The notes beneath the pieces were generated by a model. It made no database searches. It was not told the DNA's origin and was given only the letters and a program-made list of their open reading frames with translations. A program made the position numbers and the translations under genes. Source: Branchiostoma floridae (taxonomy: Eukaryota; Chordata; Leptocardii; Amphioxiformes; Branchiostomatidae). Taken from it: 64,000 nt of DNA. The DNA lies in the NCBI RefSeq assembly GCF_000003815.2, contig NC_049986.1, forward strand, positions 9,725,244 to 9,789,243. Direction: 5' to 3'. Positions 24,030 through 51,911 of the stretch are shown here, one piece after another; the stretch's first letter is position 1; every line of letters starts with the position of its first letter.

Positions 24030-24098
24030 TATAAAGTAGAGCCAGACCAAAGAACATACCACAAACCAAGAGATCCAGGGAGCCTCCACATGTTCATG
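24030..24098 (+). promoter_or_regulatory. TATA core promoter and non-coding first exon of the lectin-amidase gene
   Basis: TATAAAGTAG at 24030 is followed about 30 bp later by GAACATACCACAAACC and, at 24099, by the donor GTAGGT. The same arrangement (TATAAAATAG, the AGAACATACCACAAACC block, a GTAGGT donor) is conserved at the paralogous locus near 47.71 kb, although surrounding sequence has diverged. Start site near 24,060 and a leader exon ending at 24,098 are inferred. The coding exon begins directly after an acceptor at 29,511, which a non-coding leader exon would explain. Confidence 0.6.
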
Positions 24099-24978
24099 GT
24101 AGGTGCACATATCCGCACATATATTTTGTTGTTTTATGTTTTGGAACTGTTGCTTTGCAGGTATGTCAAAATGATTTGATGTCATAATGTAGTAATGAGA
24201 AAGGGTGTTCGGTGACTATATTTCTTAATGTACATTGTATATTTTTAAAAAAAGTGTAGCAAAAAGTTAGGAGATTGTAAGAAAAATAGTCAATGAGCTT
24301 GTATACCTGATATGCAGGTTGCCAACAATTTCTTATTTAATGCCTGTTAGAAAATATTGATAATGGGCAAGTAGGCAATGGGCAAATAGCATATCTTGTT
24401 AATTGAACGGTTACCAAAACGTTGAAAATAAGTGCCAATTGCTATAGTGCAATAGTGAATGTTGTTTTTTCTGTATATTTTCTTCCTTTACGGTCTAGTT
24501 ACAGGATTATTTCACTATTTGTTTAAATTTATAACAACCGCAAAATAAGGGCTGCTACATTATAACCTTATGTCCTGGAATTATTGGTATAAGTTCGTGG
24601 CCTTATGGCCTAAGCGTTAAGAAATATTCTATAGCAGCCACCTGTCTAATCACGGCCTCACAATTTCTGGTCCCATAGATACAGACACACTGCCTATTGC
24701 AACCATACGGCTGCCATATGTCACCCTGTGCCGAGCTTAAGATCGTAGTTTGCGAGGATTTGGAGTTCTCGACAAGTTCATTTGGACGATAGCGGAAGGT
24801 CCGCGTGGCTTGACCGTTAGACCGCAAGTCTTTGTCAGCGAATTTCCGCACATTGGGCATGGCAATATCAATCATTTTCGGTAGATTTGACTTTGTCAGT
24901 TGAATTTCGAGACGATCGAGACAATGTTACTTGGTGAGAAAGATTAGTGGGTACTGAAAGCATGTGTAACTTATTGCT

Positions 24979-26925
24979 CTTTCTTTCTTTCTTTCTTTAT
25001 TGACGATGAGACATGTCATTACAAGGGTCTGCCTAGGCAGCTTTGGGCTGGTAGCGGCAGAACCTACAAAATACGGACGAACATACAAAGAAGTCATACA
25101 ATATAATACAATAAAATAATCAATGATTAAAAGGTGTCATGCAACTATACAGATTGATCTATACCATTTGTCAGCTAACTTAAAAGATTGGAGTAGGTGG
25201 AAGGTCAGTATACTATCATACGGGTTTAATATTAAAATCCTGACAGGAGGTGGCTTCTGCAACGGGCTTTGAACTGTGGGAAAGTGGTGGAGTCGGTGAT
25301 GTGGTTTGGTAGGTTGTTCCACAGTCTGGAGGTATATGGAATAAAGCTGTTGCTGTATGTTGTAGTTCTGCAGCGAGGGATATGGAGGTGTGAAGAGTTT
25401 CGCAGACGAAGCTGGGTTTGGGTTTGTCTTGTTTGAGGGATGAGTGGTTGCAGGTGGGGTGGTACAGTGCCGGTAACCAGTTTGTACATGATGACTAGAC
25501 GGTGATAGTCTCGCCTAGTTGAGAGCCTGTCCCATCCAAGCTCTTGAAGCACGTCCGAGTAGGGTGTTCTTGGCGCTGCACCTGTAACTAGGCGGCCTGC
25601 ATGGTACTGTACGCGCTCTAGTACTTTGGAGGCGGCTACACTCATGTTGGTGAAGAGGATGGAGGCATACTCCAGCCTAGGTCGCACAAGGGTAAGGTAA
25701 GCCAGTTCCAGTGCTTCCTTGGACAACTTGCCTCGCAACCTCCAGAGGTATCCAAGTACCTTTCTGGCCTTACTGGAAGTATTCTGTGCGTGGTCGTTCC
25801 AGCCCAAAGCCTGGTGTAAGGTGACACCAAGATGCGAGTAGAAGGGAACCTGTTCGATGAGCTGGCCTGAGATGTAGATAGGAGGAAGTACAACTCTGCT
25901 TCGTGCAGACTTGATGCAAATAACCTTGCACTTCCCTGGATGCAGTTCTAGACCCCAGACATCAAACCAGTCAGAAACAAGCTGTAAGTCGGAGTTAGTG
26001 GTGCTGGCTACCTGCTCGGCCGTCGGTCCCGAGTTTGACAAAGACGTGTCATCAGCAAAACTGTTGATGTCCGATGTACAAGGTAAGTCCTTGATGTCGT
26101 TTATGTAGACTAAGAATAACAGCGGGCCAAGGATACTGCCCTGTGGGACGCCCGCGTACGTGTACCTCCAAGACGACGTAGCACCATTAATGACCACACG
26201 CTGCTGGCGGCCTGTGAGGTAGTGATTAAACCAGCTGATGAGTGGTCCACTAACTCCGTAACGCGATAGCTTGTACGTTAATCCATCGTGCCACACAGTA
26301 TCGAACGCTCTACGGACGTCCAGAAAGACGGCGGCCGTACAGGAGACATTGGAGTCATCAATGGACTTGGCCCAGTTGTCAACCAATCGCAGGAGTTGTA
26401 GGACTGTCCCATCCCCTTTTTTGAAACCAGACTGGTTGACGTTTAACAGATTGTTGACGGTAAGATAAGTGTACAGGCGGTTGTGAACGACTCTCTCCAA
26501 CACTTTGGCTACGGTGGGCAGAAGTGCGATCGGTCTGTAGTTTGATGGATCAGTCCGATCACCCTTTTTGTATATTGCCGACACGTTTGATTGCTTCCAG
26601 TCTTTTGGTATTTGTCCTGTAGCGAGTGACAAGTTGAAAAGCTGACAAAGGGAGGCGCTGATGGCTGGTGCTCCCTCCTTAAGGAGTCGGTTGGTTATTC
26701 CATCGGGGCCTGGAGCCTTGTTAGGATGTAATCCTTGCAGCACACCCAGGACTTCTTCCTCTGAGACGTGAATTGTAGAGAGTACTTCATCAGTGAACTT
26801 AGGGAGCCTGCTTGTAAAGTTTGGATGCGTAGCTTCCTTAGTGACTCTGACAAAGACGTCATTAAGGGTTTCTGCCTTATCTTTGTTTTTGTCCAGGACG
26901 ATGCCATTTACGGAGAGTGCTCGTG
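24979..26925 (-). mobile_element. 5'-truncated LINE with reverse transcriptase ORF
   Basis: An open frame from about 26,925 to the stop at 25,232 on the minus strand encodes the reverse transcriptase of a non-LTR retrotransposon. Visible blocks: HPNKAPGPDG, SNYRPIALLP, the AFDTVWHDGL region, GVPQGSILGPLLF and the catalytic FADD (26,048-26,059). No endonuclease domain is present, so the copy is 5'-truncated, and the frame breaks near 26,925. The 3' end has AATAAA and an (AAAG)n tail near 24,979-25,000. The motifs fit the jockey/CR1-like group; the exact clade is not determined. The ORF is intact over 500 codons, so insertion is fairly recent. It sits antisense in the first intron of the lectin-amidase gene. 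Confidence 0.85.
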
Positions 26926-28537
26926 GTCAATTGATCAGCAATTTCTCTATAGTGGCCACCTGTCTATAGTGGCTACATTTCTCCAGTATCGCTATAGACA
27001 TGGTTGGCTGTATCCAGAAGTAAGGTGGATACAACACGTTCCCATATGGATTTAATTGCGATGAAATAGCTTAGAACTGATAGTCAGCGGTTATAAGTTC
27101 CTGATTTTCGGTTCCATTTCTAGCTGAATCTATCTTTTGAAAACGAGCTTTTTCTGATGATCTTTGCAGTTTTATGGACAGAGAAGTAAAACGTAGACGA
27201 CATGCAAATGTCAGTTATAACCTCTTCTTTTGTCATCCCATGGCCATCCTTTCAAATTTCTAGTTGTGCAGTGAACGCTTCACTTTGACCGGATTACCAT
27301 CTTCTCCATAAGTATGTTGGACTCTTTTCCATGGAGAGGTTTGACACTTGGGACTTTCTCTTGAATCTTATAAGGGCACTGTCGGTCAAACAATTTTGGT
27401 AACGTTATATGTTTCTTCATTGAGATAAGTGTCCATTACAGAGTTCCTGTGGGAAAATGACCGATATAGATAACAAAACAAAATAGTAACTAGTACAGAG
27501 AAGTAAAGGCAAAAAAGACTTACGATAGGTGGTCAAGACCGAAGACCCAGGAACAAGTGGCAAAACTCAAATTTCGGGGGATGAAGGTAAAGTGTAAAGC
27601 CCTTCATGAATATGTACCGAAACTCAGATCACTATTGTTACTCTGTGACACTGGAGGGTAACCTCCAGTAACAGAGTATTGTAATCACTTTGTGCGTTGG
27701 GTGTTCGCACCTATATCTCTATGTTCCGTATGCCGCAATCGCATGTGGATTGGCATGTCGTCTGTACTCGGTTAGGAAATGATGCACGTTGTTTTTTTTT
27801 TCGCCGTAGCTGTTTTTATTATGGATGTAATAATTTCAGTTTTCACCCCTACGCCGTCCGGTATAGTGGTTCAGGTCTTCCTTATGATTGTGCCTTAAGC
27901 GTTGTAGCTATTTGATACCGTCAAGCAGATGTTGGCCTCGTCGGAATATGCAATCTCGTTCGGGCTTTGCGTTTCCAATATTGAGGTTGGTTTGACATAG
28001 CATACTGTTAACATTTTGCGCGGTTGATAGTCATATGCATGTTATGGTTAAAACGTGTTTGATCTTTGGGAACCTTTTTTTTCGCGGTAGCTATTTTCAT
28101 TATCGATGTAATAATTTGAGATGTCACCCCTATTTCCCTGGTATTGTAGACCAGCTGGCTTATAGACGCTGGGGTCTGACAATTACTTATCTCGAAGCAG
28201 ATATGGGGTTATTTCCACAGCTGTGATTGACCTACTTTTAAACGAGGTGTGCGTCTCAAGTATCCATTGTGAAGCGCTGTTGTTGTTTCATTTGTGTCGT
28301 TCGATTGAGACGCTGAATTAGCTGTGTTTTAAATTTGGCAGTGATAGGTATCGTAGCTTTTAAGTAGGTTTTTTGTATTAGCTGATGTGATGTGTCTTGT
28401 ATGCGATTCACTACTATATAGGTGGGGTGGCCATGCTCTTAATCTGTCGGGTAGGAACGTGTCTTTTGTGACCGGAACACCGAAAGTAGAGGGAAATAGC
28501 AGGGACAGAAGGGGTATGATCTTGGAGGGAAATTATA

Positions 28538-28637
28538 NNNNNNNNNNNNNNNNNNNNNNNNNNNNNNNNNNNNNNNNNNNNNNNNNNNNNNNNNNNNNNN
28601 NNNNNNNNNNNNNNNNNNNNNNNNNNNNNNNNNNNNN
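28538..28637. other. Assembly gap (100 N)
   Basis: Exactly 100 undetermined bases, the usual placeholder for a gap of unknown size. Flanks at 28.27-28.39 and 28.90-29.04 kb are similar to each other, so repeat collapse may have caused it. Confidence 0.99.
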
Positions 28638-29511
28638 AATGGAAATTATATATTTCGCATATACACAGAATTAGCCATTGTCGGTGGGAACTCAAACTTT
28701 ATGAAATTATTTGTGTACCTTATATTTGTAGCACTTGGAGGAGCGTGTGCGTTGTATACGACATAGGTTGAGTATGTTTCGTTCCGGCTCACCGAAAGAA
28801 AGGCGTTATGATCAGGAACAGAAAGGGACTGTTATGGACGGTGATTATGTTTGAACCATACACACAGATTGTTATGTCTGTACGTTTTGTGCTCGACCTG
28901 TGCTTGTTTTCATTTGGTGTCGTTCGATTGAGACGCTGATTTCGCTGTTAATGCGTACAGGACTGTGTTTTAAATTTGGCAGTGATAGGTATGTTAGCTT
29001 TTAAATACGTTTTTGGTATAAGCTGATGTGATGTGTTCTGTATGCGATATAAACACCGAGAAATACACCACAGAAAACATCACAACCGACATTAGCCATA
29101 ATTATGTCACAGAGTATGTTACCTACGGTCACTTGATATCTTTGAAGGCGACATCCTTTTGAAAATCAGTAACAACAAAAATTGGTGTAACGTTATATCT
29201 AGCTGTCGCCTGCTTTGTCACTAAAAGCCTCAGCCATTAATCTACGGTACCTGAAAATAGCCTCCTACGTTGGATAAATGTCTATCTGTACTGTAACGGT
29301 ATTTCACCTTTATCCGCGGGGTAACCTACAACTGTTGTTTTCATAAACAGGTTATTTAGGGATTTCAATTGACAGTTGTTCCAAATTAAATGAAACGGGC
29401 ATAGGTTATGATGGGGAAAAGGTGACTACCAATTGACGGCAATAAAAGTGAGAGGAGGAAGAAGAACGTGGATGCTACATAATCTTTACTACATAATGAT
29501 TTTTTTTCCAG

Positions 29512-32500
29512 ATGGAAAAGAAACTCCTGTTGTGCCTTGTGCTTCTCGCCATACCAGTGGCGACAGCGCAAGGTTTGTCTTATAATTTTCTTGTAGGAAA
29601 CATATGAATATTAGTGACTTTTTGAGAAATGGAAGTGTTAAACACACACGCGCATGCATACGTACGCGATGGTTAATGGTTAAAGTTGATTCTACATGGG
29701 TGTTGCAGAAAGCAAAGTAAAAAGAAATACGCGATTGGAAGAAAGGTATATGGCTCCGAGGGTGTGGATGATATATGAGAAAACACACATAAGGGCAGTT
29801 TGACTAAGGGTTTGACAAAATTAGTTTGCTTCATTTTACACAAGCCGACACATGCTAGCCTTTTGCGTCAATGAGTCGACATGTTCTGGACTTACGTGGA
29901 GCCTCAGAGGGGGTAATTTTTTCGTAAAGGTGAGAAGTAATGCGCGCGGCGGATGGCATCCATAAAATCAAGTTTGTGTGGCTTGACGGCGAAATGAGTC
30001 ATTCGAAAATGACTGAATCTACAATAACCGCTGCCCTAACAAAGACCAGGATGTGACTGAAAATGATTATAAGAACAAAGAGTGATTAAATACTAATATC
30101 TGATAAGATACTAATATCATGTCGCAGACTGCGCTGCTGGATACCAGGAGATTGACGGAAGTTGCTACTACTTCTCCAAAGTGGCCAAAAACTCCCGCCA
30201 GGCCATAGCCACGTGCGAGGCCTCGGGGGGCGAACTGCTCGAAGTTGACGACGACGCTACGAGGGCCATCATCGACAACTATGCCTCGCGTTGCGTGTAT
30301 GTCATCCATTGACAACTTATATCTATATCCAACACATAACTTAGTACTGTGTGTATCCCAATCTCCGAGCAGATCCGGATATCACAATTGTGTTGTTTTT
30401 TGCAAATTTTGGATTTTCAGGTTTTAAGTGAAAAGTTAGGTACTGTAGTAGAAAACAGGTAAGAACTGTAATTGTTATGTTGCAAAAACAGTCGTAAAAC
30501 ACTGAAATGAGACAATCTTAAGCTTCTAGATATGTTTATCCATAGTATATTTTTTCCTATAGTCAATTTCTTTATATCCAAATACAATCATCTACTCATA
30601 TTGGCGACACCCTAGGGGCGAGCCAAATGGTATATAATTGTGTTCAGTTAAAAAAACTCTAGGTATTGTGCCGGAATATTTCCACAGGAATGATAGTAAT
30701 CAACATGCATCTTTGGTATGTAAGTCCCTCAGAAATAGGAATGCTAATAGTCCACGTGTAGTTTGGTATGTAAGTCATTCAAAAGATCTATACAGGATGT
30801 GCTGATATCTCGGTAATCATGAGAAATGCAATGGTGGAAAGTGGCTCATGCTGTATAGTAGTAGTCATGTTGGCTCCCTGGACTGGAGGTATTTGTCATA
30901 GAAAAATAGTCCTAGATAGGGAAAGCCATATAACATAGTTAGACAGGAAGTGTTACATATGAAGGTCATAATAATTTTGAATAATGGCAAATGGTAATTA
31001 TATTCTGAGCGAAATGTATTTTTATGGCATATATCACACACTGGTATACGCACTCACACAATAATGCATAATCATGTGTAACATGTAAAACATAAAATTT
31101 ATTATGTCATACCTGTGACGCGAAAACGTTCGATACGGGTGTTCCGGTGTGACAGCGTTCTCGCCCCCCCCGTGATCTTGCCCCCCCGGGGGCGAAATCA
31201 CTAGCGATCTCGCCCCCCCGGGGCGAAATCACTAGCGATCTCGCCCTCCCCGGCTAGTGATCTCGCCCCCCTACCTCGCCCCCCTTTAGCGATTTCGCCC
31301 CCCCCCCAAAAAAAAACGGGTTTACATGACATTTTAGAAGTTGATTGGTATAAATCACACAATGTAGTTTCAGAATGATATAAGTACACGAGTTTGATAC
31401 ATAACTCCATTCATAGTATCAATATTAACGTAATTACATGGTAATAAGATAGTTGAACTTGTTTCAGACAAGGAGGGTTTGGTCCCTTGTATTCCCATTA
31501 TTGCATATACCTGAGTCTTGACATAAGATGTATTTCATTGTATTCACCTGTCCTCAAGCAACCTATATATCTCCAATATGAAGTCTCTACAATGAAGTGA
31601 CCACAAAAGAACTATGTAATGTCTTTATTAATTATGCAAATATTAGGTATTAATTAGAATAACGCACATTTTGGTATATGCACCTGGCCAAGGGATATCT
31701 TCACCTCCAACATGACTGTCTTTTCTAGTATTTAGGAACTGATGCATTTACCCGTGTTTCTTAAGACAGGTATTTTACCAGTGTTTGTGTAGCATTTAGC
31801 AACAGCTATATCAACTTGCGCGTAGATAGTGTTTATAATGAGAAACTATTATTCACGTGTGTTTTTGTTAGTGCTTTGGAAATGTTTCCAGCACAAGAAA
31901 GAAAACACTGTGACAAATTGAAAACATATAGCTGACGTATTCCGTACCATAGACGGTGTTGATTTATACGTTCGCAGTAGCACTGTTTTATGCCACCTCA
32001 GCTGCAAAAATTGTCTTTTTTCATTTCAATGTCATGTTTGCACCGAACAATATAATATTGACTTTCGAGGTATGACATCTTACGGTAATAAGGTGCCATA
32101 TAGGTACCAGGTAACACACCATATACGTTACTCCCCAGGTGCAGTATAGTACCAGGTTGCGCACCTGTAATATGTAGTAGCCAGCTGCTCTGGGAGGGGG
32201 GGGGGCGAAAACGCTAAAGGGGGGCGAAAACGCTAGTGATCTCGCCCCCCGGGGGGGGCGAGATCGCCGGGGGGGCGAGATCGCTGTCACACCGGACCGG
32301 GCCGTACGTTTTCGTATCGCACAGGTTCGAAAGGCGTATCACACAGGCTCCATTCGAATAAATCGAACTGTTTCGAGCGGGCCGAATACGGCACTTCGAA
32401 GCAATTCGAATACCTGATTCGGACGCTGTTGCAACACTTTTTGTTCGAGGGCCCCAAATTTGTTCAACTTCTGGCGCATTTTGCATCAAAACATGGGTTT

Positions 32501-33008
32501 TCTCAGGTGGGTATGACATAAATGAAATACAACACATTTAAAGGTATTTTTAATGTAGTTTGTAGTTCCGAAAATAAGGACTATCTGCACGAAGAAAAGT
32601 TGCCAATGTCGGATAATTGCACATTAAAACATCCAAGGAAATGGGAGGAATTGTGCAAAGTCTACCTGATAGTATTAAATATACAACTTTCATTACTTGC
32701 TCAATTTGTACATCACGTTTGGCTGACTGACTTTTCTAATACAAAAGCTCCAGGGAGAGTGTATGACCCAAATTCCTCCCAGTAACATTCCTCAGGTCTA
32801 ACATCTAACATTCCAAACATGCCTGTGGACTAGCATTCTTGTGGATACATTCCTAGAATTCTTGCAAATTGAGCACAACCCCTACAACACCCAACGTCGC
32901 CATGGAAATGTATTTTGTCATATAGCATTGCCAATCTTGTTTTCCTTTCTTTTCTAGGTACTGGATCAGCGCTGAATCGGCACTAGTTGACTACTGGCAG
33001 AGTGCAGA
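29512..33008 (+). CDS. Signal peptide and CTLD exons of the lectin-amidase gene
   Basis: Exon 1 (29512-29572, 61 nt) encodes the signal peptide MEKKLLLCLVLLAIPVATAQ; its ATG follows the acceptor TTTCCAG. Exon 2 (30128-30296, 169 nt) has CAAGYQEIDGSCYYFSK and the helix segment TCEASGGELLEV. Exon 3 (32958-33008, 51 nt) begins YWISAES after the Val-Tyr codon split at the junction. The domain closes in the next exon with EFKFICK. It is a short CTLD of about 80 residues, lacking the usual long-loop region. The weak donor of exon 3 is supported by the equal 51-nt length of its counterparts at 50,716 and 12,852. Confidence 0.8.
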
Positions 33009-33213
33009 GTTAGAACCAATGTTCAATACTTGCAATTTCCAATTAATTCAGTTACTACCTTCACCATGAGGATTATGTTATCGGCAGCACTTCTGTGTGT
33101 GTGTGTGTGTGAGTGAGTGTGTTTGTATGTGTGTTGTGTGCGTGTTGTGTGTTTGTGTGTGTGTGTTGTGTGCGTGTTGTGTGTTTGTGTGTGTGATGTG
33201 TTTGTGTGTGTTT

Positions 33214-33256
<43 letters not shown>

Positions 33257-36200
33257 GTGCGGTGTGTGTGTGTGGTGTGTGCATGTATGTGTAGAAGACC
33301 AACATAGCTTTAGAAGGTAAGGTTGAATTGGGTTTACATTTAGTATGTGAATAGGTCTTCATTGGACCTCAAAATGACTAGATTTTGTGCCCCTTGTATT
33401 GAATGTATTTCTGTTCCATTTGTTTAGCTGGATATGTATATCTGCCACATTATTTTTCAGTAAGGAATTCAAGTTTATTTGCAAAGCATCTACAAGTGAG
33501 GAACCTACACGTGAAACACCTACACGCGAAACACCTACACGTGAAACACCAGGTGAAACACCTACACGTGAAACACCACATGAAACACCTTCAGAGGAAA
33601 CACCACGTGAAACACCTTCGCCTGAAGATGATGAAGCTATAGGTGAAGAACCTACTACTCCAGACTTTGCAAAATTGTAGACAAGATTTCTCAATGTTTT
33701 CCCCCCTTGCCTTCCCTAATAAAAACGCAATTAATACTTTTAAATCTGAATAGTATTTATGCACAAGTATCACGCCTGACTGGGTGTAAATATCATTTTC
33801 TTTTAGACAAAAAAAAAACACTGGAGGAAGAACTATATATGTACAATCATATTGTTTGTTGTTCACGGTTGTGGGTGGGCGATGATTAACGTCCGCAGGC
33901 AGTGATGACAGACTGGGAATGATCCCGAAACTTTTCGCTTGTCTGGTAATAATTACCTCCATGAAAAATGGAGGTATAGTTTTTGGTGCGTCTATCCCTG
34001 TGTGTGTCTGTATGTGTGTTTGTGTTTCCGGATATTTGTGGTCACCATAGCTTTAAACATCTCGATGGATTGTAAGAATATTTGGTATGTGGGTAGGTGT
34101 TGGAAAGATGAAGGTCAGGGTCGATTTTGGGCTCCCTGGTGTGTGACTTTGGTACTGCAGCAGAACGTCTTTTTTACCTGGACATGCTATGATTTTGATT
34201 TATTGGTGGCAGATAGCTTGTAAGGAAGAAGTTTATTTATTTAAGTGATGTATGTTTGGGCCCCCTAGCAGCTTGTTCTGGAACTGCAGGGGCAATTTTA
34301 TCAAAATCTTCAAAGGAGCATAACAAGTATAGGAATTATGAATTTCCATGATATTTAGCATGCAGGTATCTTTGGCAGAGCTGTGCATAATGAGGTGCAA
34401 ATTATGCAAATTTGGACCTAATTTGCATACTTAATGAGAAAAATCGACATTTACAGTGTTTTCCATTATAGGACTCAAATACCTGTAACATATGTAGTTT
34501 GTGGTAGGTGGAATATTAGCAAATATCAATCAATACCCCTAATTTGCATGATATGGCATAAATTGATGTGAAAGTGTTCTAATTCATCTAAGTACATGTA
34601 GTAAATGATTGGATTGTCAACATTGTGTAAGTTGCTTAAAGGAGTGCATAACCAAGCATAAATCATGCAGATGTAGAAATCATTTGTATAATCAGAATAT
34701 TTCATGGAGGTATGAGGTATCCAAACTCTTGTTGAGCTAGGACTGGTCAAGGAGACGCGTGTTATCTTGTTTAAAACATGAATAAACATAGTATATTTCC
34801 ACCAACAAATTCTTAGATATATTACAACAAGAGATGTATACGAAATCACTATGGCGACGGATTATGCAACATCATGTGCGTATGGTTTCTTTATGCGCCC
34901 CTATTTCCCTGGAAAGGTGTAGAGAAAAACCTGAACAGGATTGAACAAGGGGCTACCGTAATTATAGTTGTTCCTACTTGCCAGAAATAGCGCTTTCATT
35001 TTCTTCCCCAAACCCCCACTGCCAAAGACTATCATTAAAAGTTAGAAAAAAATGTAGTAGGGAATACATTTGTGCAATTTTAGAATACGTTCAGAGCAAT
35101 CGTAAATTGTAAAAAAAAAATACCCCGCTCCAAAGGTGTTGCCAAAAATTATCAACAATAAGTTGACTGAACAAATACCAAATGCTTGGATTTCTAGTTA
35201 TTCCTGACAAATCACTGGTTTGTTTTGTTTTCAGCCTGGCCACCGTTTAGAAACTTGAAAAACAATTATCCCGATTCTACCCTCAGCGGGGATGATATCG
35301 TAGAACAGGAGGGTTTGGATGCCTGGCTGAAGGGCAAGGTAGACAACTCCTGTGCTATACGTGCTAGCTATGCCATCACTAAAAGTGGTAAGTAATAAAA
35401 GTTTAGATACACACAATAGGTTGGGAATACTTACTGTTCATTAGTCTGGTGAAAAAGTGGTTGTATTATGCAATATCAGAAATTCTTGCTCTGGGAGTCT
35501 TACTGTGGCCTCCTTCGGTCAATATTGTACACAGTTTATGTACATGTACCAAGAACCTCTTGCAGTCTACATTACATACTATTTCATGTAATCAATTGAT
35601 GAAGGCTACTTAGTATTTCCTTGGCTATTTTGTCTTACTGGGTGAGGTATAGGACTGTGTACTACCCAATTCTGTACCTGTAAAATATATCATGAACATG
35701 TAGTTCAAGTAATGGTCTGGGCCTGAACACCTAGTGTACAATACCTCTGTCTAAACAAATAAACGGACATCATTAGTGGACATCACTTTTTAAGACTTGG
35801 TAAATTTATCTCAAAGAGGACAATTTTGATAATTTGCCAGATTTGTTTTGAGACACAAATTTGTAAATGTCAGTGAAAAGATGACAATTAACTCCTTAAA
35901 AGACAGAAGGGGTACATGCATGTATACTAGGGGTGGGTATCGGTAAAGAAAATTCAGGTCCAGGCATAATCCAGGTCCAGAGGATCATGTCTAGCTGGAC
36001 CTAAATATCTGTGAAAACTTATGAATTGACGATACTCAAAACAATGGTACATTTCGCAACAAATGATTCTGTTTGACAAAGTTTGACGTTAGAAGCTTGG
36101 TAAAAATGACTATCAACTCTCCTCTACCTCGCTCTTTGACCTGTATTAGCCACACAAGTGCCGATGTAGGCTGTTCATTTTCGAGTCGGTCCAACATCCA

Positions 36201-39200
36201 CTATTTTTTTTTAGGTCCCGTTTAACTTGACCGGTAGGCGGTAAAAAAAACGGTTTTGAACTGCCATACCGTACCAGTACCCACCTCTAATGATTACAAT
36301 TTACAGATAATGATTCATAATTGTGTGCATGTAGGTCCAGAGCCAGATCTGGATCAATATGTAAAGCATGTACATGTATACTGTACCTGTACCTTTGTTT
36401 TTTAATCTAACATAATATAGGTTATTTGTACACAGCCGAAGTAAGGAGGTTCAAAATATTGACGGAAAGACACAATCTACCTACTAAATATGGTATGAAA
36501 TGATAGAAGAAATAATTTTAAAAACTTTAGGAATGACAATGGAGGTGCCAGATGAATGCAGAGAAAACTGGGCTGGAGTGAGGGACAGGAACAGGAATCC
36601 ATACTTCATTCGTGTTGCAACTATGTGCTGCTACCTGCAGGAGACCATAGGTGACCCAGCCATCACTGGAAAGAATCAGGCGGACTATGCGGTAAAGAGC
36701 AAGACAATAACATATGTCTTAATTAGAGAAACAAGCTGCTGGTCTAAGTATCACTGACGAGAGACATCGGATGGTGTCTGAAGCATCTGACCTTTTTCCA
36801 AAATCATATCGTAATGGATATGTTTTTGAAACGGTCAGACGTTTCGGATAGAATCCACTATCCTTCGTCAGTGACACTGAAGAGATCTGGAAGAAACAGG
36901 TCTTTTATACTCTAACTATGAATGAAGACAATTTCAGATGTCCAATAGGAAAGGTTGTAAGACAATTCAGACTGAAGACAATTTGGATTCCAAAGAAACG
37001 TCTGACCGTTTCAAAACCATATCCAGTTGCTTGAGTAACTATTTTTGGCGTATCTTATTACCTGGATGTCTAACCTACATCGACATATCGTAATGTTTGA
37101 GTAACTGCTATTTGGAGTACCTTATTACCTGGATGCCTTCAACAACGCAAATCATGCTCATTGGCAAAAATTGTCATTTCAGTGTCAGCATGGAAATAAT
37201 ACAACTGTTATAGCTATTTTTCAAATGTTCTCCTTACAGATCCATTAAGAGGCCATTAGACTAGTAGGTGAATGATGAATTGATCTAAACCTGGTACATT
37301 GTAATGACAAGAAAATGACAAAACCTGAGATTGTACTATTAAATAAGCTAAAAACTTGAAGGCAATAAGGCTATGACTTAATAATTGCTTGCATTATAGT
37401 GTTATGTATTATGCAAAGCAATACCATATATGAATGACAATAAAGCACAACGTAGCTCCTCCCTAGATCCACCTCAGCTACATTGTCTCACATATATGGT
37501 CCTATATGGTATTTCTCAACAGGGCCACCAGGGAATCATTGTATTCAAGGACTGTGACTTCGAGACTGCTACCGGACATGTGGACCTGTGGGATGGTGCA
37601 GATTGCTGTGGTCAATGCTACTTTGATAAGTGCGATGACATCAGGCTTTACAAATGTGAAGAAGATACAGATGAAACATCTACAAACGAAACACCTACAG
37701 AGGAAGATGCTGAAGATGATGACGCTATAGGTGAAGAACCTACTACTCCAGACTTTGCAAAATTGTAGACAAGATTTCTCAATGTTTTCCCCCTTGTCTT
37801 CCCTAATAAAAACGCAATTAATACTTTTAAATCTGAATAGTATTTATGCACAAGTATCACGCCTGACTGGGTGTAAATATCATTTTCTTTTAGACAAAAA
37901 AAAAACACTGGAGGAAGAACTATATATGTACAATCGTATTGTTTGTTGTCACGGTTGTGGGTGGGCGATGATTAACGTCCGCAGGCAGTGATGACAGACA
38001 GGGAATGATCCCGAAACTTTTCGCTTGTCTGGTAATAATTACCTCCATGAAAAATGGAGGTATAGTTTTTGGTGCGTCTATCTCTGTGTGTGTCTGTATG
38101 TGTGTTTGTGTTTCCGGATATTTGTGGTCACCATAGCTTTAAACATCTCGATGGATTGTAAGAATATTTGGTATGTAGGCAGGTGTTGGAAAGATGAAGG
38201 TCAGGGTCGATTTTGGGCTCCCTGGTGTGTGACTTTGGTACTGCAGCAGAACGTCTTTTTTACCTGGACATGCTATGATTTTGATTTATTGGTGGCAGAT
38301 AGCTTGTAAGGAAGAAGTTTATTTATTTAAGTGATGTATGTTTGGGCCCCCTAGCAGCTTGTTCTGGAACTGCAGGGGAAATTTTATCAAAATCTTCAAA
38401 GGAGCATAACAAGTATAGGAATTATGAATTTCCATGATATTTAGCATGCAGGTATCTTTGGCAGAGCTGTGCATAATGAGGTGCAAATTATGAAAATTTG
38501 GACTTAATTTGCATACTTAATGAGAAAAATCGACATTTACAGTGTTTTCCATTATAGGACTCATATACCTGTAACATATGTAGTTTGTGGTAGGTGGAAT
38601 ATTAGCAAATATCAATCAATACCCCTAATTTGCATGATATGGCATAAATTGATGTGAAAGTGTTCTAATTCATCTAAGTACATGTAGTAAATGATTGGAT
38701 TGTCAACATTGTGTAAGTTGCTTAAAGGAGTGCATAACCAAGCATAAATTATACAGATGTAGAAATCATTTGTATAATCAGAATATTTCATGGAGGTATG
38801 AGGTATCCAAACTCTTGTTGAGCTAGGACTGGTCAAGGAGACGCGTGTTATCTTGTTTAAAACATGAATAAACATAGCCTATTTCCACCAACAAATTCTT
38901 AGATATATTACAACAAGAGATGTATACGAAATCACTATGGCGACGGATTATGCAACATCATGTGCGTATGGTTTCTTTATGCGCCCCTATTTCCCTGGAA
39001 AGGTGTAGAGAAAAACCTGAACAGGATTGAACAAGGGGCTACCGTAATTATAGTTGTTCCTACTTGCCAGAAATAGCGCTTGCATTTTCTTCCCCAAACC
39101 CCCACTGCCAAAAACTATCATTAAAAGTTAGAAAAAATGTAGTAGGGAATACATCTGTGCAATTTTAGAATACGTTCAGAGCAATCGTAAATTGTAAAAA

Positions 39201-42200
39201 AAAATACCCCGCTCCAAAGGTGTTGCCAAAAATTATCAACAATAAGTTGACTGAACAAATACCAAATGCTTGGATTTCTAGTTATTCCTGACAAATCACT
39301 GGTTTGTTTTGTTTTCAGCCTGGCCACCGTTTAGAAACTTGAAAAACAATTATCCCGATTCTACCCTCAGCGGGGATGATATCGTAGAACAGGAGGGTTT
39401 GGATGCCTGGCTGAAGGGCAAGGTAGACAACTCCTGTGCTATACGTGCTAGCTATGCCATCACTAAAAGTGGTAAGTAATAAAAGTTTAGATACACACAA
39501 TAGGTTGGGAATACTTACTGTTCATTAGTCTGGTGAAAAAGTGGTTGTATTATGCAATATCAGAAATTCTTGCTCTGGGAGTCTTACTGTGGCCTCCTTC
39601 GGTCAATATTGTACACAGTTTATGTACATGTACCAAGAACCTCTTGCAGTCTACATTACATACTATTTCATGTAATCAATTGATGAAGGCTACTTAGTAT
39701 TTCCTTGGCTATTTTGTCTTACTGGGTGAGGTATAGGACTGTGTACTACCCAATTCTGTACCTGTAAAATATATCATGAACATGTAGTTCAAGTAATGGT
39801 CTGGGCCTGAACACCTAGTGTACAATACCTCTGTCTAAACAAATAAACGGACATCATTAGTGGACATCACTTTTTAAGACTTGGTAAATTTATCTCAAAG
39901 AGGACAATTTTGATAATTTGCCAGATTTGTTTTGAGACACAAATTTGTAAATGTCAGTGAAAAGATGACAATTAACTCCTTAAAAGACAGAAGGGGTACA
40001 TGCATGTATACTAGGGGTGGGTATCGGTAAAGAAAATTCAGGTCCATTTATAATCCAGGTCCAGAGGATCATGTCTAGCTGGACCTAAATATCTGTGAAA
40101 ACTTATGAATTGACGATACTCAAAACAATGGTCCATTTCGCAACAAATGATTCTGTTTGACAAAGTTTGACGTTAGAAGCTTGGTAAAAATGACTATCAA
40201 CTCTCCTCTACCTCGCTCTTTGACCTGTATTAGCCACACAAGTGCTGATGTAGGCTGTTCATTTTCGAGTCGGTCCAACATCCACTAATTTTTTTTAGGT
40301 CCCATTTAACTTGACCGGTAGGCGGTAAAAAAACGGTTTTGAACTGCCATACCGTACCAGTACCCACCTCTAATGATAACAATTTACAGATAATGATTCA
40401 TAATTGTATGCATGTAGGTCCAGAGCCAGATCTGGATCAATATGTAAAGCATGTACATGTATACTGTACCTGTACCTGTGTTTTTTAATCTAACATAATA
40501 AGTTATTTGTACACAGCCGAAGTAAGGAGGTTCAAAATATTGACGGAAAGACACAATCTACCTACTAAATATGGTATGAAATGATAGAAGAAATAATTTT
40601 AAAAACTTTAGGAATGACAATGGAGGTGCCAGATGAATGCAGAGAAAACTGGGCTGGAGTGAGGGACAGGAACAGGAATCCATACTTCATTCGTGTTGCA
40701 ACTATGTGCTGCTACCTGCAGGAGACCATAGGTGACCCAGCCATCACTGGAAAGAATCAGGCGGACTATGCGGTAAAGAGCAAGACAATAACATATGTCT
40801 TAATTAGAGAAACAAGCTGCTGGTCTAAGTATCACTGACGAGAGACATCGGATGGTGTCTGAAGCATCTGACCTTTTTCCAAAATCATATCGTAATGGAT
40901 ATGTTTTTGAAACGGTCAGACGTTTCGGATAGAATCCACTATCCTTCGTCAGTGACACTGAAGAGATCTGGAAGAAACAGGTCTTTTATACTCTAACTAT
41001 GAATGAAGACAATTTCAGATGTCCAATAGGAAAGGTTGTAAGACAATTCAGACTGAAGACAATTTGGATTCCAAAGAAACGTCTGACCGTTTCAAAACCA
41101 TATCCAGTTGCTTGAGTAACTATTTTTGGCGTATCTTATTACCTGGATGTCTAACCTACATCGACATATCGTAATGTTTGAGTAACTGCTATTTGGAGTA
41201 CCTTATTACCTGGATGCCTTCAACAACGCAAATCATGCTCATTGGCAAAAATTGTCATTTCAGTGTCAGCATGGAAATAATACAACTGTTATAGCTATTT
41301 TTCAAAGGTCTCCTTACAGATCCATTAAGAGGCCATTAGACTAGTAGGTGAATGATGAATTGATCTAAACCTGGTACATTGTAATTACAAGAAAATGACA
41401 AAACCTGAGATTGTACTAATAAATAAGCTAAAAACTTGAAGGCAATAAGGCTATGACTTAATAATTGCTTGCATTATAGTGTTATGTATTATGCAAAGCA
41501 ATACCATATATGAATGACAATAAAGCACAACGTAGCTCCTCCCTAGATCCACCTCAGCTACATTGTCTCACATATATGGTCCTATATGGTATTTCTCAAC
41601 AGGGCCACCAGGGAATCATTGTATTCAAGGACTGTGACTTCGAGACTGCTACCGGACATGTGGACCTGTGGGATGGTGCAGATTGCTGTGGTCAATGCTA
41701 CTTTGATAAGTGCGATGACATCAGGCTTTACAAATGTGAAGAAGATACAGATGAAACATCTACAAACGAAACACCTACAGAGGAAGATGCTGAAGTTGAT
41801 GGCGCTATAGGTGAAGAACTTACTGCTCCAGAATGTAGATAACTTTTATCTATTGCTTTTCCCTTTGAACGCCAGACAAGGACACTCGGCACCTATTTTA
41901 TAGGATGCCTCACATTTACCACGGCAAGCAAAGCTAAAATCTGTGTATAAAATCCTTGGAATGTCTCAAATATTTTGTGTACCAAGTTGAGGACATCCTA
42001 TTCCAGTTCAGTATTAGCCAAACCTGCCTATAGGTGCGGTCACCTCTTTATCCTGGTCATCCGTCGTAGAAATTTCTATAATAACAAAAGTTGTGATACA
42101 AATATGACAATGGCGACAGATTATGTAATCTAAAACATTATGTGCTTATGGTCTCTTCAGCTATGTGTCCTTCTTACTCTGGAAAGGTGAAACCAAACCC

Positions 42201-43968
42201 TCTAAAGTGAACAGCTATAATGTTGTTCTTACTTGCGATAGAATTTCAAGCATTGATCATCGTTCCATAAAATCATCATGTTTATCTTCATCGACATTGT
42301 CGTTCTACCTGGCCAAGATCATTTTCCACCCGAAAACTACACTGCTGAAGGCTACCTTAAAACGCTTTTCTTGGGAATAAACGTAACATTCTTTAAATAT
42401 TTTCAGAGATTGTAAACATAAAACAATATGCCTCTGTCCCCACGCAAGGCAAATACCGCACAAATACCAAAATGCCAGCATGTTTGGTCATTCCTCATGA
42501 ATCACAGTTTTTGTTTTTCAGAATGGCCAGCCTTTAGAGACTTGAAAGGCAATTATCCCCCTCCTGCCCTCACTTGGGATAATATCGTAGATCGGGAGGG
42601 TTTGGATGCCTGGCTGAAAAATCTGGCAAACAAAAACACTTGTGCAATGCGTGTCAGCTACGCCATTACTAAGAGTGGTAAGTAATTAAAGTTTAGATAT
42701 TTGTAACTACAATTTGCATGTACTTTCACAGTTGACTGGGAATGCAACAATTAATTTGTCTGGTGACCTTCATGTAGTCTTGCACCATCAGGAATTCCTA
42801 GCCTAGTGCCCAGCCTTGTTAGCTTTGGTCCGCTCCCAACTGTCAACCCGTCCAGAGCAGACAAAAGATAACAAGTCTAGACACTAGGCTAAAAAATCCT
42901 ACATTTGAAATTCTTGTTGCAGACTAAAATACTAGCTATCATGTACCTCTTTCAATCGACATGCGACATCTTTGATAGCACATATTCATGCCAAGCTTCC
43001 TGAAAAAAATTTAACGATTCATTGATTACATTACATGGTCATGGATAATGCCAACTTCCTTGGCCATGTCCCCTATTAACACCTATAGTATACATTTTGT
43101 AAATCAGTTGGGGACACACAATTTGAATACCCAAAGACATTATGCATTCAATCAATGTCTTTAATCTACCTACAAAATGATAACTGCATAACACAATTTT
43201 CCCGACTGTTTTAGGAATGACAATGGAGGTGCCAGATGAATGCAGAGAAAACTGGGCTGGAGTGAGGGACAGGAACAGGAATCCATACTTCATCCGTGTT
43301 GCAACTATGTGCTGCTACCTGCAGGAGACCATAGGTGCCCCAGCCATCACTGGAAAGAATCAGGCGGACTATGCGGTAAAGATCAATCCAATTACATATG
43401 TCTTTATTAGAGAAACAAGCTAATGGTCCAAATATCACTGACTGAAGATGTCGGATGGTGTCTCAAGCATCTGACCTTTTCCAAAATCATATCATAATGT
43501 TTGAGTAACTGCTATTTGGCGTATCTCATTACCTGGATGTCTAACCTTCATTGACACAAATCATATTAGTTAGAGATACGCTGCTCATTGGCAAAAATCA
43601 TCATTTCAATATCAGCAAGAAAAAACACAACAGCAATAATATGTTTTCCATACAGATCCATTAAAGAGGCTAATAGGCTTGTAGGTGAATGATGAATTGA
43701 TACAGAACTGAACAGGAGCAGATAAATGCCAAGAAATACTGGATATTATATTAAAAAATTATATTAATGACAATAAATCAAAATGTGAATGAATATTGTA
43801 GTAATATTATATGGTATCTCTCAACAGGGCCACCAGGGAATCATTGTATTCAAGGACTGTGACTTCGAGACTGCTACCGGACATGTGGACCTGTGGGATG
43901 GTGCAGATTGCTGTGGTCAATGCTACTTTGATAAGTGCAAGGACATCAGTCTTTACAAATGTGAATAG
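29512..43968 (+). CDS. Secreted lectin-amidase: signal peptide, short CTLD, Thr-rich stalk, three Tae4-family amidase domains
   Basis: Thirteen exons join in phase: 29512-29572, 30128-30296, 32958-33008, 33461-33642, then three amidase units 35235-35387/36531-36691/37523-37730, 39319-39471/40612-40772/41603-41810 and 42522-42677/43215-43375/43828-43968. The sum is 1,965 nt, giving 654 residues and a TAG stop. Tae4 proteins are type VI secretion effectors that cleave bacterial peptidoglycan; eukaryotic homologues acquired by transfer are known as dae genes. Here the domain has spliceosomal introns between its catalytic Cys and His exons, a signal peptide and a lectin-like domain, so it is a resident host gene, not bacterial contamination. 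Likely role: a secreted antibacterial cell-wall hydrolase (inferred). Base composition matches the neighbours, so the transfer is old. Uncertain points: the GTTAGA donor at 33009, and whether one transcript uses all three units. Confidence 0.75.
31111..32326. mobile_element. Foldback element with long, internally repeated inverted ends
   Basis: The left end ACCTGTGACGCGAAAACG, then TCCGGTGTGACAGCG at 31143, is mirrored by CGCTGTCACACCGGA at 32282-32296, then CGTTTTCGTATCGCACAGGT. Inside both ends are several copies of a GCGATCTCGCCCCCCGG-type subrepeat, so the arms are G- or C-run rich. The 0.9 kb middle is AT-rich and non-coding. It lies in the second coding intron of the lectin-amidase gene and is absent from the paralogous locus. 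Confidence 0.7.
33094..33292. repeat. (TG)n microsatellite
   Basis: Long TG/TTG tract with CG runs in the intron before the stalk exon. ORFs on both strands here are repeat artefacts. Confidence 0.9.
33461..33680 (+). CDS. Last CTLD piece and Thr/Glu/Pro-rich stalk exon, with an alternative stop
   Basis: After KEFKFICK the exon encodes a stalk of PTRETPTRETP-type repeats built from a 15-bp unit (33,500-33,625) and then an acidic stretch EDDEAI. Thr-rich repeats of this kind are commonly O-glycosylated. A donor at 33643 (ATAG then GTGAAG) leads in phase 1 to the amidase exons. If it is not used, the frame continues twelve residues to a TAG at 33678-33680, with AATAAA at 33718-33723. The exon could thus end a lectin-only form. 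Confidence 0.7.
33955..34718 (+). mobile_element. MITE of the ACCTCCATGAAA family in amidase unit 1
   Basis: Left end ACCTCCATGAAAAATGGAGG and right end TTTCATGGAGGTATGAGGT, with no coding capacity. A copy is at the same place in unit 2 (38,041-38,804); unit 3 has none. Confidence 0.6.
35235..37730 (+). CDS. Tae4-family amidase unit 1 (three exons)
   Basis: Exons 35235-35387, 36531-36691 and 37523-37730. Exon E1 has the family start WPPFRNLKNNYP and the nucleophile region SCAIRASYAI (Cys codon 35351-35353). E2 has the conserved YFIRVAT...YLQETIG segment. E3 has the GIIVFKDC strand and the catalytic-His motif TGHVDLWDG (His codon 37577-37579), followed by a Cys-rich end (ADCCGQCYFDKC). The roughly 150 residues match a full Tae4 domain, whose Cys-His pair hydrolyses a peptide bond in the peptidoglycan stem. 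E3 ends in an acidic Thr-rich linker and the same ATAG/GTGAAG donor (37731) as the stalk exon. Confidence 0.85.
35929..36288. mobile_element. MITE with AGGGGTGGGTA-type inverted ends, unit 1
   Basis: Left end AGGGGTGGGTATCGGTAAA and right end ACCGTACCAGTACCCACCTCT are inverted repeats; the type resembles hAT termini, but no 8-bp target duplication could be confirmed. A related end (AGAGGTGGGTACCGGTAC) is at 13,768. The copy in unit 2 is at 40,013-40,371. Confidence 0.6.
36815..37025. mobile_element. Small MITE in the second amidase intron, unit 1
   Basis: About 211 bp with ends TGGATATGTTTTTGAAACGG and its inverse near 36,995-37,025 (CCGTTTCAAAACCATATCCA). Inside are GACGTTTCGGATAGAATCC and CCTTCGTCAGTGAC blocks shared with 52.15-52.2 kb. 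The same place in unit 3 (about 43,498) is an empty site. Confidence 0.65.
38041..38804 (+). mobile_element. MITE of the ACCTCCATGAAA family in amidase unit 2
   Basis: Near-identical to 33,955-34,718. It was copied along with the 4.08-kb duplication rather than inserted separately. Confidence 0.6.
39319..41810 (+). CDS. Tae4-family amidase unit 2 (three exons)
   Basis: Exons 39319-39471, 40612-40772 and 41603-41810, nearly identical to unit 1 and offset by about 4,080-4,086 bp. Cys codon 39435-39437 and His codon 41657-41659 are intact. Differences from unit 1 are mostly in introns and in the linker (EVDGAI instead of EDDDAI). Introns carry the same three transposon insertions as unit 1. If the final donor at 41811 is skipped, the frame ends shortly after (GEELTAPECR then stop). 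Confidence 0.85.
40013..40371. mobile_element. MITE with AGGGGTGGGTA-type inverted ends, unit 2
   Basis: Same element and position as 35,929-36,288, carried by the tandem duplication; a few bases differ. Confidence 0.6.
40896..41106. mobile_element. Small MITE in the second amidase intron, unit 2
   Basis: Same element as 36,815-37,025, copied with the tandem unit. Confidence 0.65.
42522..43968 (+). CDS. Tae4-family amidase unit 3 (three exons, ends the gene)
   Basis: Exons 42522-42677, 43215-43375 and 43828-43968. It is more diverged: E1 has WPAFRDLKGNYP and CAMRVSYAI (Cys codon 42641-42643); E2 and E3 are close to the other units; His codon 43882-43884. It has compact introns (537 and 452 bp) without the transposons of units 1 and 2. 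It lacks the acidic linker: the frame stops at TAG 43966-43968 just after LYKCE. A polyadenylation signal candidate AATAAA lies at about 44,482; there may be a nearer one. Confidence 0.85.
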
Positions 43969-46210: not shown

Positions 46211-47900
46211 CTGTTAGATGTCGCTACGTATACATATGGGAAACTCCATGGCTATTGACAGGATTAATAGTCAATGTCTCTTCTGAGAAGAAAACATAAT
46301 GATTTGCAGGATTTTAAAACGCCAATGGACGTCGGATACGCCACCAAACAGAATGTTTTGTAGCGAAATTGTTTTGAGTATCGCAATTGCCCATTCACAA
46401 GTTTTCACAGATAGCCATCCCAAATTCTATGTCTATAGATCTTCAGTCCGGTTAGTCAGTGATCATGGGTAGAACGGAGGTCAATAACCTGAACAGTCCG
46501 TCAAACCAGCGACTGACAAAATATTAGAGACATCACAAGTTCCGTCAAGTTATCACATTGAATCTACCCGCCACATCAGATCCACTTTACTCTGTGTTGT
46601 CAGTCCCATTTTAGATCACTCGGCCAAGTGTTGCCACCATCAACAAAGATGTACTGCTTTTGTCCGAAGATCAGATTACAAACAATACATATATGTTGTA
46701 TCAATTTGTAGGATAGCTCTTACAAAGGTGTGCGTGCTTAAATCTTGTTGTCTCATACGTTAGACGTCAAACGTCATTAAATGTGTTACCAAAATAAAAT
46801 AAAGTGGATGAAAAACGTCAGACAATATTGCCATACTCAAGACCCAAAATAAAGCCTCTATGTAATATTGAATCGGTGCAATTTCGTGGATAACTTTATG
46901 GGATAAATCACTGGAAAGACAAGATAAATTATGACATACTACAACATGCCATTGTGTACTATTTACCATTGTGGTATACTGGTAGGTAAGAATTTGCGAT
47001 ACTGAAAACGTCTGGGTTAAATGTTGTGTTTACTTCAAGGGATTTTGACTGATATTTGTGTCCGCGTTTTATGGATTGTTCATACTTCTGCGTATATCCA
47101 GGTCCGTATGAGTTCCGCATTAAAAATTTTGACCCTCGGTTGATTAGCCTTTACACCAAACCGAAAAAATAATTCTTCGTTCGCAAACTTTGCCTAAAAC
47201 AAAAAAATATCAATACGAAAGGCATACGGACTTAAACACTAGTGTACACACAAGTGTGGATGGGCCTTGACAAAAGAGGTACACATAGAACAAAACGCGG
47301 AGTTTACCAAACATGCTTCAAAGATTTAGCCAAATGTCGAGTCAATTTATTCGTAGTACAGTACATCTTTGATATGCGGTGTACGAGCACATGTACACAG
47401 ATTTTAGAGCTTTTACAAAACAAAACTTAAAGGGTTTTTATCCTTAGATGCGAAATTCATAATAAACAAAGCCGACCAAAATAGCGTTATGTGATATTTC
47501 ATAAATACGTCAAAATGTGTTGTATTTTTGTGGCAAGGTTTTGTGCACCTTGTGCCAACTTGGACGGATATGCCTATTCAACACCGGATATGGCGTCATT
47601 ATAAATCAGCCAGTTGCCATATGGAAACGAAAGATTTCAGCATGTGATTCATAAATACTACAACGCTATTGGCTAACTAAACCCCAAACAATATTACTTG
47701 CTACTCTGTCTATAAAATAGAGCCAGACCAAAGAACATACCACAAACCAAAAGATCCTGAGTCAGAGAGCCTCAACATTTTCACGGTAGGTACACGTAGA
47801 CAGATTGCGTACCGATATTTTGCTTTTTAAGTTATGAAAACGTTGCTTTACAGGTATGCAAAAATGATTCAATATTATTATGTTGTGATGAGAAAGAATG
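46210..47900 (+). repeat. Promoter-side part of the segmental duplication, copy 2
   Basis: Matches 22,090-24,180 in order and orientation. It begins immediately after the 3' flank of copy 1, which is what a tandem locus duplication predicts. Confidence 0.75.
47711..47785 (+). promoter_or_regulatory. TATA core promoter and non-coding first exon of the paralogous lectin locus
   Basis: TATAAAATAG at 47711, then the AGAACATACCACAAACC block, and a donor GTAGGT at 47786. Conservation with 24,030-24,098 against a diverged background suggests that both are or were functional promoters. Confidence 0.6.
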
Positions 47901-48504
47901 TGCGGTGAATATAATGGTCAGTTTATATCTATCAAAAAGTGTAGCAAAAAGTTGAGGGATTTTCAGAAAAAAAAAGTTGTGCAATGTTTGTATGCATGCT
48001 GTCAATAGTTTCTCACTCACAGCCTGTGGAAAATGTTGACAATGTACAGAACATCGTATTTTGATTACAGAATATTTTGTCTGTAAAACTTCAATCAGTG
48101 ATGGAGTTCAAGCAATGACTAGAGCATTCATTGAAAGTTTAACGAAACGTTGGGAGATAGAGGCAGTGTCAAGTCCTCAATTTGTATTTCTTAACTAGAC
48201 GGCCACGGATTCTGTACATGTTTTTTTTTCTAAATGGTGCCCGTCGTTTAAGAAATATTAAATTAAAGCCACAGAGGTGTTTGTTGATGACATTCGCTAA
48301 AGAGGGGCTGTTATGATGTATTCGTATGTCCAGAAAGTAAAAATAAATGCGATGGTCACAAAAATATATGTACAAACACGACGAAATCCGTTCTATGTGC
48401 ACGCTTATAAGGGTTTCATTTTCGGTCACTCTAAGTTACATAATGTACCATTTTCTTACATAAGAATGTTTAGCGGATGAGATAAAAGTGTTTGTTATCC
48501 CTAA

Positions 48505-49019: not shown

Positions 49020-49329
49020 ATGGAAAAGAAACTCCTTCTGTGCCTTGTGCTCCTCAGCATATCAGTGGCGAAAGCACAATGTATGTCTTTTGAGTTAAGG
49101 AATTCTTGTAGAAAATATGTAAATATTGATAATGTGATCCCTACTTTTCACTAAAGTAATACAATGCACCCAAACATGTTTTAATGAAGTAATTGATACT
49201 ATAAGATATCAATTGAAAGTCGTCTGGAGTGGACACACACACGCGCGCGCGCGGGCACACACACACACATACAGCAAAGTATTTCCCACTAAAATGAACG
49301 AATCTACAGTAACCGCTGTATTAACACGG

Positions 49330-49379
<50 letters not shown>

Positions 49380-51735: not shown

Positions 51736-51911
51736 TGGTGAATAGATGCAAAATGACAGGATAATATTAGATTGCTAATAACAGTAAATCAGGCTACCAT
51801 GCATTAATGCAAAATGTACTACTACTACTACTAATTAATTACTATTAACTATAAGATATTGTTAGATTCCATAGGAGTGACTTATGTAGTAGCCATCCTT
51901 TTAGCATGTGC

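Follow-up and report, generated by a model that had tools for sequence, protein, structure and literature searches.

Does an animal lectin gene run on, in one frame, into the amidase of a bacterial weapon? The question is raised by a stretch of 64,000 nucleotides of the lancelet Branchiostoma floridae (the window; G000:C8:9725244-9789243), where exons for a signal peptide and a C-type lectin domain (CTLD) are followed by exons resembling Tae4, an amidase effector of type VI secretion. Here we ask whether the two parts are joined, both within the window and against the genome that holds it (513,431,437 bases in 431 contigs). The reading we prefer, with a probability of roughly 0.6, is that of one lancelet gene, predicted to encode a secreted precursor of 654 residues in which a compact CTLD-like module and a linker precede three Tae4 cysteine amidases of the NlpC/P60 type.

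The joined frame and its Tae4 units

Thirteen exons on the forward strand, from an ATG at 29512 to a stop at 43966-43968, splice into a single frame of 654 codons that is free of internal stops (Table 1). Each is bordered by AG before and GT after, the last closing at the stop codon, and the phases after successive exons (1-2-2-1, 1-0-1, 1-0-1, 1-0-end) are all mutually consistent; in fact, the donors of exon 4 and of T3 in units 1 and 2 each match the phase of the next T1. The product would read, in order, as signal peptide, CTLD-like domain (exons 2-4), a linker of ETPT-like repeats rich in Thr, Pro and Glu, Tae4 unit 1, an acidic linker, unit 2, a second acidic linker and unit 3. This 13-exon join bears out the original prediction that signal-peptide and CTLD exons are followed, on one strand and in phase, by Tae4 exons. 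The coordinates and frame of that prediction stood, but its set of CTLD exons did not, because a third one (32958-33008) had been missed. We infer that exon 4 is spliced to the Tae4 exons and that the product is secreted; the signal peptide, recognised by hydropathy, would precede Tae4 in the product only where exons 1-4 are spliced to the Tae4 exons. Inside intron 2, at 31143-32296, inverted repeats of 50-60 bases, rich in C and G runs, lie about 1 kb apart, an arrangement that resembles an inserted mobile element.

Table 1. Coordinates, in the window, of the gene model, its paralogue and the repeats around them.
Feature	Position	Strand	Remarks
Exon 1, predicted signal peptide MEKKLLLCLVLLAIPVATAQ, ends in phase 1	29512-29572	+	By eye and hydropathy; copy at 49020, 85% identical
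Exon 2, N-terminal half of compact CTLD, phase 2 end at CGT/gtatgt	30128-30296	+	Paralogue exon at 49517, 96% identical
Exon 3, 'VYWISAESALVDYWQSA', phase 2 to 2	32958-33008	+	Conserved in gene 2 at 50716-50766, 76% over 59 bases
Exon 4, CTLD C-terminus KEFKFICK and linker of ETPT/ETPR repeats, phase 1 end	33461-33642	+	KEFKFIC also at 51078 in gene 2
In-frame run-on to stop (33678-33680) and AATAAA 33718, possible lectin-only end	33643-33723	+	
Tae4 unit 1, T1, catalytic Cys (NSCAIR)	35235-35387	+	Pfam Tae4 match, genome search
Tae4 unit 1, T2	36531-36691	+	Pfam Tae4 match, genome search
Tae4 unit 1, T3, GHVDLW (catalytic His and Asp); acidic linker and phase-1 donor in place of stop	37523-37730	+	
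Tae4 unit 2, T1	39319-39471	+	Pfam Tae4 match, genome search
Tae4 unit 2, T2	40612-40772	+	Pfam Tae4 match, genome search
Tae4 unit 2, T3, linker and phase-1 donor	41603-41810	+	
Tae4 unit 3, T1	42522-42677	+	63% identical to unit 1 T1
Tae4 unit 3, T2	43215-43375	+	98% identical to unit 1 T2
Tae4 unit 3, T3, ends YKCE and stop	43828-43968	+	96% identical to unit 1 T3
Tandem duplication, 33622-37752 against 37710-41832	33622-41832	+	98.96% identical, period about 4.08 kb
Dispersed repeat in intron before unit 2 T1	38035-38819	.	99% copy before unit 1 T1
Gene 2, paralogue about 5 kb downstream	49020-51126	+	Signal peptide 49020-49080; compact CTLD exons 49512-49686, 50716-50766, 51077-51126; borders by eye
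Decayed Tae4 T3 exon, 475 bases past last gene 2 exon	51601-51742	+	Local alignment

The claim that the gene holds three Tae4 domains was confirmed with the Pfam Tae4 model (PF14113), which the spliced product matches in three stretches with an E-value of 2.3e-64 and 215.5 bits (cut-off 27). Taken singly, units 1 and 3 reach E-values of 7.2e-21 and 1.1e-21 (73-78 bits), and the domain sequence of unit 2 is that of unit 1. A six-frame search of the genome with the same model recovered the T3 exon of all three units independently. These matches are far beyond chance. Among solved structures in the PDB, the units match the Tae4 entries 4j30, 4hff, 4jur, 4hfk and 6ijf, with best E-values of 1.9e-14 for unit 1 as query and 4.3e-15 for a two-row profile; an NCBIfam search with the lectin part plus unit 1 gave no match.

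The active site can be followed residue by residue. Cys40 and His124 of unit 1 align with the Cys and His of the solved Tae4s. The third catalytic residue of StTae4, Asp137, is not conserved, its position being Gly in the lancelet unit; instead, Cys40, His124 and Asp126 match the HxD triad of the Serratia and Agrobacterium type (alignment; PMC3695027, PMC6277958), in which the catalytic Asp is described as standing two residues past the His (PMC6277958). Unit 3 keeps the same Cys, His and Asp, as does unit 2 by its identity with unit 1. The same columns are occupied in this way in 11 of 15 aligned bacterial rows, three others (Pantoea and Erwinia) reading HVT and the last carrying Tyr for His. 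Because their Cys and HVD residues align with those of HxD-type enzymes, the lancelet units look catalytically competent, and we predict that they are active. Bacterial Tae4 cleaves the gamma-D-Glu-mDAP bond of peptidoglycan and is encoded together with a type VI secretion system and a Tai4 immunity gene. The lancelet units resemble the bacterial effector in scoring above the Pfam cut-off and in their aligned Cys, His and Asp, but differ from it in having two introns per unit, a frame that opens with an animal signal peptide, and three copies in a row.

The compact lectin-like module and its paralogue

The sugar site of CTLDs is marked by the motifs EPN/QPD and WND. In the first half of the gene, comparison with gene 2 revealed exon 3, and what had seemed to be a missing middle exon of the CTLD proved to be this short exon, which completes a compact domain of about 80 residues. 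The module shares with CTLDs (Pfam PF00059) a C..G...C(Y/F) start, paired cysteines, a YWI strand, an FIC end and matches to CTLD structures, but it is shorter than the 110-140 residues described for the domain (PMC7618208), has neither a long loop nor an EPN/QPD or WND motif, and stays below the Pfam cut-off. In fact, the three forward frames of 29001-33700 gave no Pfam match, nor did exon 2 alone. Once joined, the CTLD reaches 16.1 bits against Lectin_C (PF00059) and the gene 2 domain 17.2, both under the cut-off of 22.6, and these weak matches span profile positions 3-56 and 3-54 of 107, so that the second half is absent.

A phmmer search of the PDB with the gene 2 domain returned 103 sequences at E-values up to 1, and nearly all of the 60 listed are CTLD proteins. 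Of the matches that have a stretch passing alone, 6a7s is the best (E 1.7e-6); two multi-domain receptors reach lower E-values only through summed weak stretches. Repeats of clostridial proteins that resemble the start of a CTLD were set aside, being likenesses of 15 to 17 residues with no stretch passing alone. No long-loop exon with a sugar or Ca motif was found at 30.3-33.5 kb, nor in gene 2, where the search was partly by eye. The CTLD of the original prediction is thus upheld by similarity in the PDB search, on which the CTLD nature of the module rests, but the label of lectin is not: the long loop is absent and the score is below the Lectin_C cut-off. Since it is the sugar-binding loop that is absent, 'lectin-like' appears the better name, and one would not expect the module to bind sugars through the usual site. 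Dectin-1 is described as recognising glycans even though it has no canonical motifs (PMC7618208). The idea that the module targets bacteria is a guess, because both its lectin nature and the joining of the exons are predicted and the sugar-binding loop is absent.

The compact form recurs among relatives. A genome search with exon 2 (150 of 270 candidates scored) found near-identical copies only twice, both in the window, the next being 44% identical (E 3.6e-6). Four of six relatives of exon 2 (L015, L017, L019, L020) are accompanied by an exon-3-like exon with the motif YW[IV]S...DAE, which was not seen in L016 and L018; by eye, an exon-4-like exon with CYICEAP or PYICEAP occurs at three of four loci (L015, L017, L020). 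On the minus strand of the window, a gene read by eye from 13694 down to 12723 has the same four-exon plan and phases, with a signal peptide and a compact CTLD, and its joined domain gave no Lectin_C match at E-values up to 1. Because four of these relatives have an exon like exon 3 and the minus-strand gene follows the same exon plan, the compact CTLD looks like a family trait rather than damage in one copy. One reservation is that L015 also carries, further on and behind an N run, a canonical CTLD exon; together with the lack of the exon-3 motif in L016 and L018 and of a Lectin_C match for the minus-strand gene, it counts against a uniformly compact family. The minus-strand gene is apparently followed by cysteine-rich exons (9189-9521 and 7454-7819, minus strand), whose modules matched no Pfam family at E-values up to 1; L016, on C13, has a similar layout.

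Gene 2 also keeps a trace of the amidase. The decayed T3 exon behind it aligns with a score of 83, against a maximum of 39 in 300 shuffles, and when 105 stretches of the window were scored (own array left out) the next best reached 37; no remains of T1 or T2 were seen behind gene 2. Because gene 2 thus keeps the CTLD together with a decayed Tae4 exon, the CTLD-Tae4 fusion probably predates the split between it and the gene described here (gene 1). The same remains, along with the reduced CTLD, could be read as signs of a fusion that is itself decaying, non-functional and without a biological role. We find this quite improbable: open frames, splice sites and catalytic residues are kept in all three units, and exon 2 gives a dN/dS of about 0.13 between genes 1 and 2 (dN 0.024, dS 0.185), on nine differences only.

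Other Tae4 loci and the question of separate transcripts

Tae4 occurs elsewhere in this genome. A search with unit 1 returned 20 rows, of which 19 are exons of seven Tae4 units (three at this locus, two on C15, one on C3 and one on C18), the twentieth having an E-value of 0.9; the second C15 unit and the C18 unit gave no T2 exon in this search. Upstream of the C3 unit is a predicted signal-peptide exon whose donor is in phase 1, and a similar exon precedes the first C15 unit. At the C18 unit (L013 5210-8300), five exons join in phase, Tae4 following a pair of six-cysteine 'GGQC...RxCC' exons and a pair of linker exons, all in phase 1; this locus is possibly a second, different Tae4 fusion. Further upstream on C18 are stanniocalcin-like exons (E 0.001, below cut-off). 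The exon 2 search (150 of 270 candidates scored) found this CTLD at none of the other Tae4 loci, and CTLD and array meet only here. Because the C3, C15 and C18 units follow differing upstream exons, Tae4 seems to be a cassette with a phase-1 entry that has been coupled to various N-terminal parts. Exon shuffling in lancelets is described as intense and biased towards 1-1 phase exons (PMC4284660). It is also reported that novel domain pairs and architecture differences in lancelets are often errors of gene prediction (PMC4967905), a worry countered here because the phases fit and because the paralogue has remains in the same order.

Could the locus nevertheless hold two or more genes, a lectin-like one ending at the stop at 33680 and, behind it, one or several Tae4 transcripts of their own whose first exon went unrecognised? 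The signal-peptide exons that precede Tae4 on C3 and C15 set a precedent, gene 2 retains its CTLD with only a decayed Tae4 exon, and past exon 4 the in-frame stop is followed, 37-38 bases on, by AATAAA, an arrangement repeated after unit 1 (AATAAA 37805) and not seen after unit 2. However, every T1 begins in phase 1 and therefore requires an upstream coding exon, for which exon 4 and the first two T3 exons, with their phase-matched donors, would serve. In keeping with the original prediction, a simple hydropathy and donor scan revealed no convincing alternative first exon for the Tae4 exons. It gave two weaker candidates before each of units 1 and 2 (hydropathy 2.6-2.8, where the two real signal peptides score 3.6 and 3.3) and no signal-peptide-like exon in the 711 bases before unit 3. 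These candidates (33919/33961 and 38005/38047), which would suit separate genes, were rejected as signal peptides; they are weak, and the unit 2 pair overlaps the dispersed repeat, of which at least 38 further long rows are found elsewhere in the genome at 77-81% identity (40 of 5007 candidates scored). We regard separate genes as unlikely.

The single-gene reading still leaves room for more than one product. Because a stop and an AATAAA lie past both exon 4 and unit 1, shorter products are possible, and one gene might, through intronic polyadenylation, yield a lectin-only form beside products that carry a single amidase or all three, and perhaps further kinds. Duplication would have placed these signals past two of the three joining donors, but the hexamer AATAAA turns up often in A+T-rich DNA, and we consider such a mixed output conceivable, if doubtful.

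Growth of the array and descent of the cassette

To judge from the long repeat, units 1 and 2 arose by a tandem duplication of 4.1 kb. The repeat has its first boundary within the exon 4 linker and its last within the T3 linker. The two linkers are 90% identical over 103 bases (33622, 37710), and boundaries of this kind would be expected from unequal exchange between them. Past RLFE, the frame of the four remaining genomic Tae4 units closes after one or two residues; that of units 1 and 2 instead stays open through a linker up to a phase-1 donor. Units 1 and 2 differ at none of 452 Tae4-exon sites, against 36 of 3671 other sites (Fisher p 0.028), which is weak evidence of constraint; between units 1 and 3, T1 gives a dN of 0.23 and a dS of 0.42 on 153 sites, a sign of moderate constraint only. 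Unit 3 is a mosaic when compared with unit 1 (T1 63%, as against 98% for T2 and 96% for T3), which suggests gene conversion.

An identity of 98.96% across 4.1 kb might also betray an artefact of assembly, in which units 1 and 2 would be one locus or two alleles and the triple array partly spurious. Yet no N run lies between them, the sole one in the window being at 28538-28637; the copies abut different neighbours (a lectin linker and a Tae4 linker); no further copy at this identity appears among the rows scored elsewhere; and unit 3 is clearly distinct. We judge this artefact unlikely as well. C-type lectin domains are described as over-represented among dispensable lancelet genes (PMC12373286), and copy number may therefore vary between animals. 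The gene is flanked by a 1.49-kb direct repeat, 82% identical (window 22848-24286 and 46506-47971). Elsewhere in the window are a sushi domain frame (107-448, minus strand; E 5.4e-5, above cut-off), a reverse transcriptase frame of 564 residues (25232-26926, minus strand; Pfam RVT_1, E 5.9e-35) and a repetitive stretch at 20579-21095, open in three forward frames with Leu/Pro/Ser/Thr repeats in each, around which GC skew is strong (-0.32 at 20001-22000).

Tae relatives encoded by eukaryotes are known as dae genes. The array, with three exons per unit and AG/GT borders, is such a Tae relative with introns in a eukaryotic chromosome, sitting on a 25.6-Mb contig beside CTLD-like genes and a sushi exon. 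Chou et al. are said to have described dae4 genes in lancelets in 2015; the earlier claim of lancelet dae4 homologues fits the other Tae4 loci found here, with the signal-peptide exon upstream on C3 and C15. To our knowledge, dae proteins are single catalytic domains, whereas the single chain predicted here combines three catalytic domains with a CTLD-like module. Tick Dae2, described as a putative gut 'guard' antimicrobial (PMC11347951), is an animal-encoded Tae relative, as are the signal-peptide-Tae4 loci of C3 and C15. Among the literature matches listed, in titles and the starts of abstracts, and with subscription papers largely outside the scope, we found no lectin-Tae4 fusion. The gene would be a variant of the domesticated amidase dae4, and its fusion and triple array appear new.

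Where did the amidase come from? A genome scan brought up three bacterial relatives, Tae4s of Pantoea and Erwinia, which are 37-39% identical to the C3 lancelet unit used to confirm them. Among 398 genomes drawn from the phylum of Pantoea, 13 (the Pantoea genome included) match at E-values up to 0.001, 12 of them above the cut-off, and a scan of viral contigs gave no match. In a midpoint-rooted tree of 19 rows with no other eukaryotes, the four rows from the lancelet form one group (93/95) whose neighbours are three Enterobacterales rows (93/84); support at both nodes stays below the star level. Five of 20 bacterial frames, partial or weak matches, had been dropped from it (L029, L039, L040, L041, L043), as had the second C15 and the C18 units (no T2 found) and unit 2 (identical to unit 1). 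The tree agrees with a bacterial origin of Tae4, the number and direction of transfers being beyond its reach.

We infer the following order of events. The Tae4 domain would have been acquired from bacteria long ago and kept as a three-exon cassette entered in phase 1, which was then shuffled behind a compact-CTLD gene. Later, unequal exchange would have replaced the stop of the cassette by the linker of the lectin exon and its phase-1 donor, such that cassettes could be strung in frame, and the further 4.1-kb duplication would have brought their number to three. The CTLD-like module may anchor the protein to a bacterial or a host surface. At its boldest, the locus might encode a surface-guided, multi-headed cell-wall hydrolase made from a captured bacterial weapon, whose heads grow by in-frame cassette duplication and whose number (none, one or three) is tuned by where the transcript ends, a picture that we offer as a long shot.

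The locus displays fusion, a neighbour's decay and the growth of an array as visible, testable steps. If the single-gene reading is true, a chain that unites a recognition-like module with three Tae4 domains would make a natural counterpart to modular lysins, and the gene would show a route by which a horizontally acquired gene can become a shuffling module of animal immunity.
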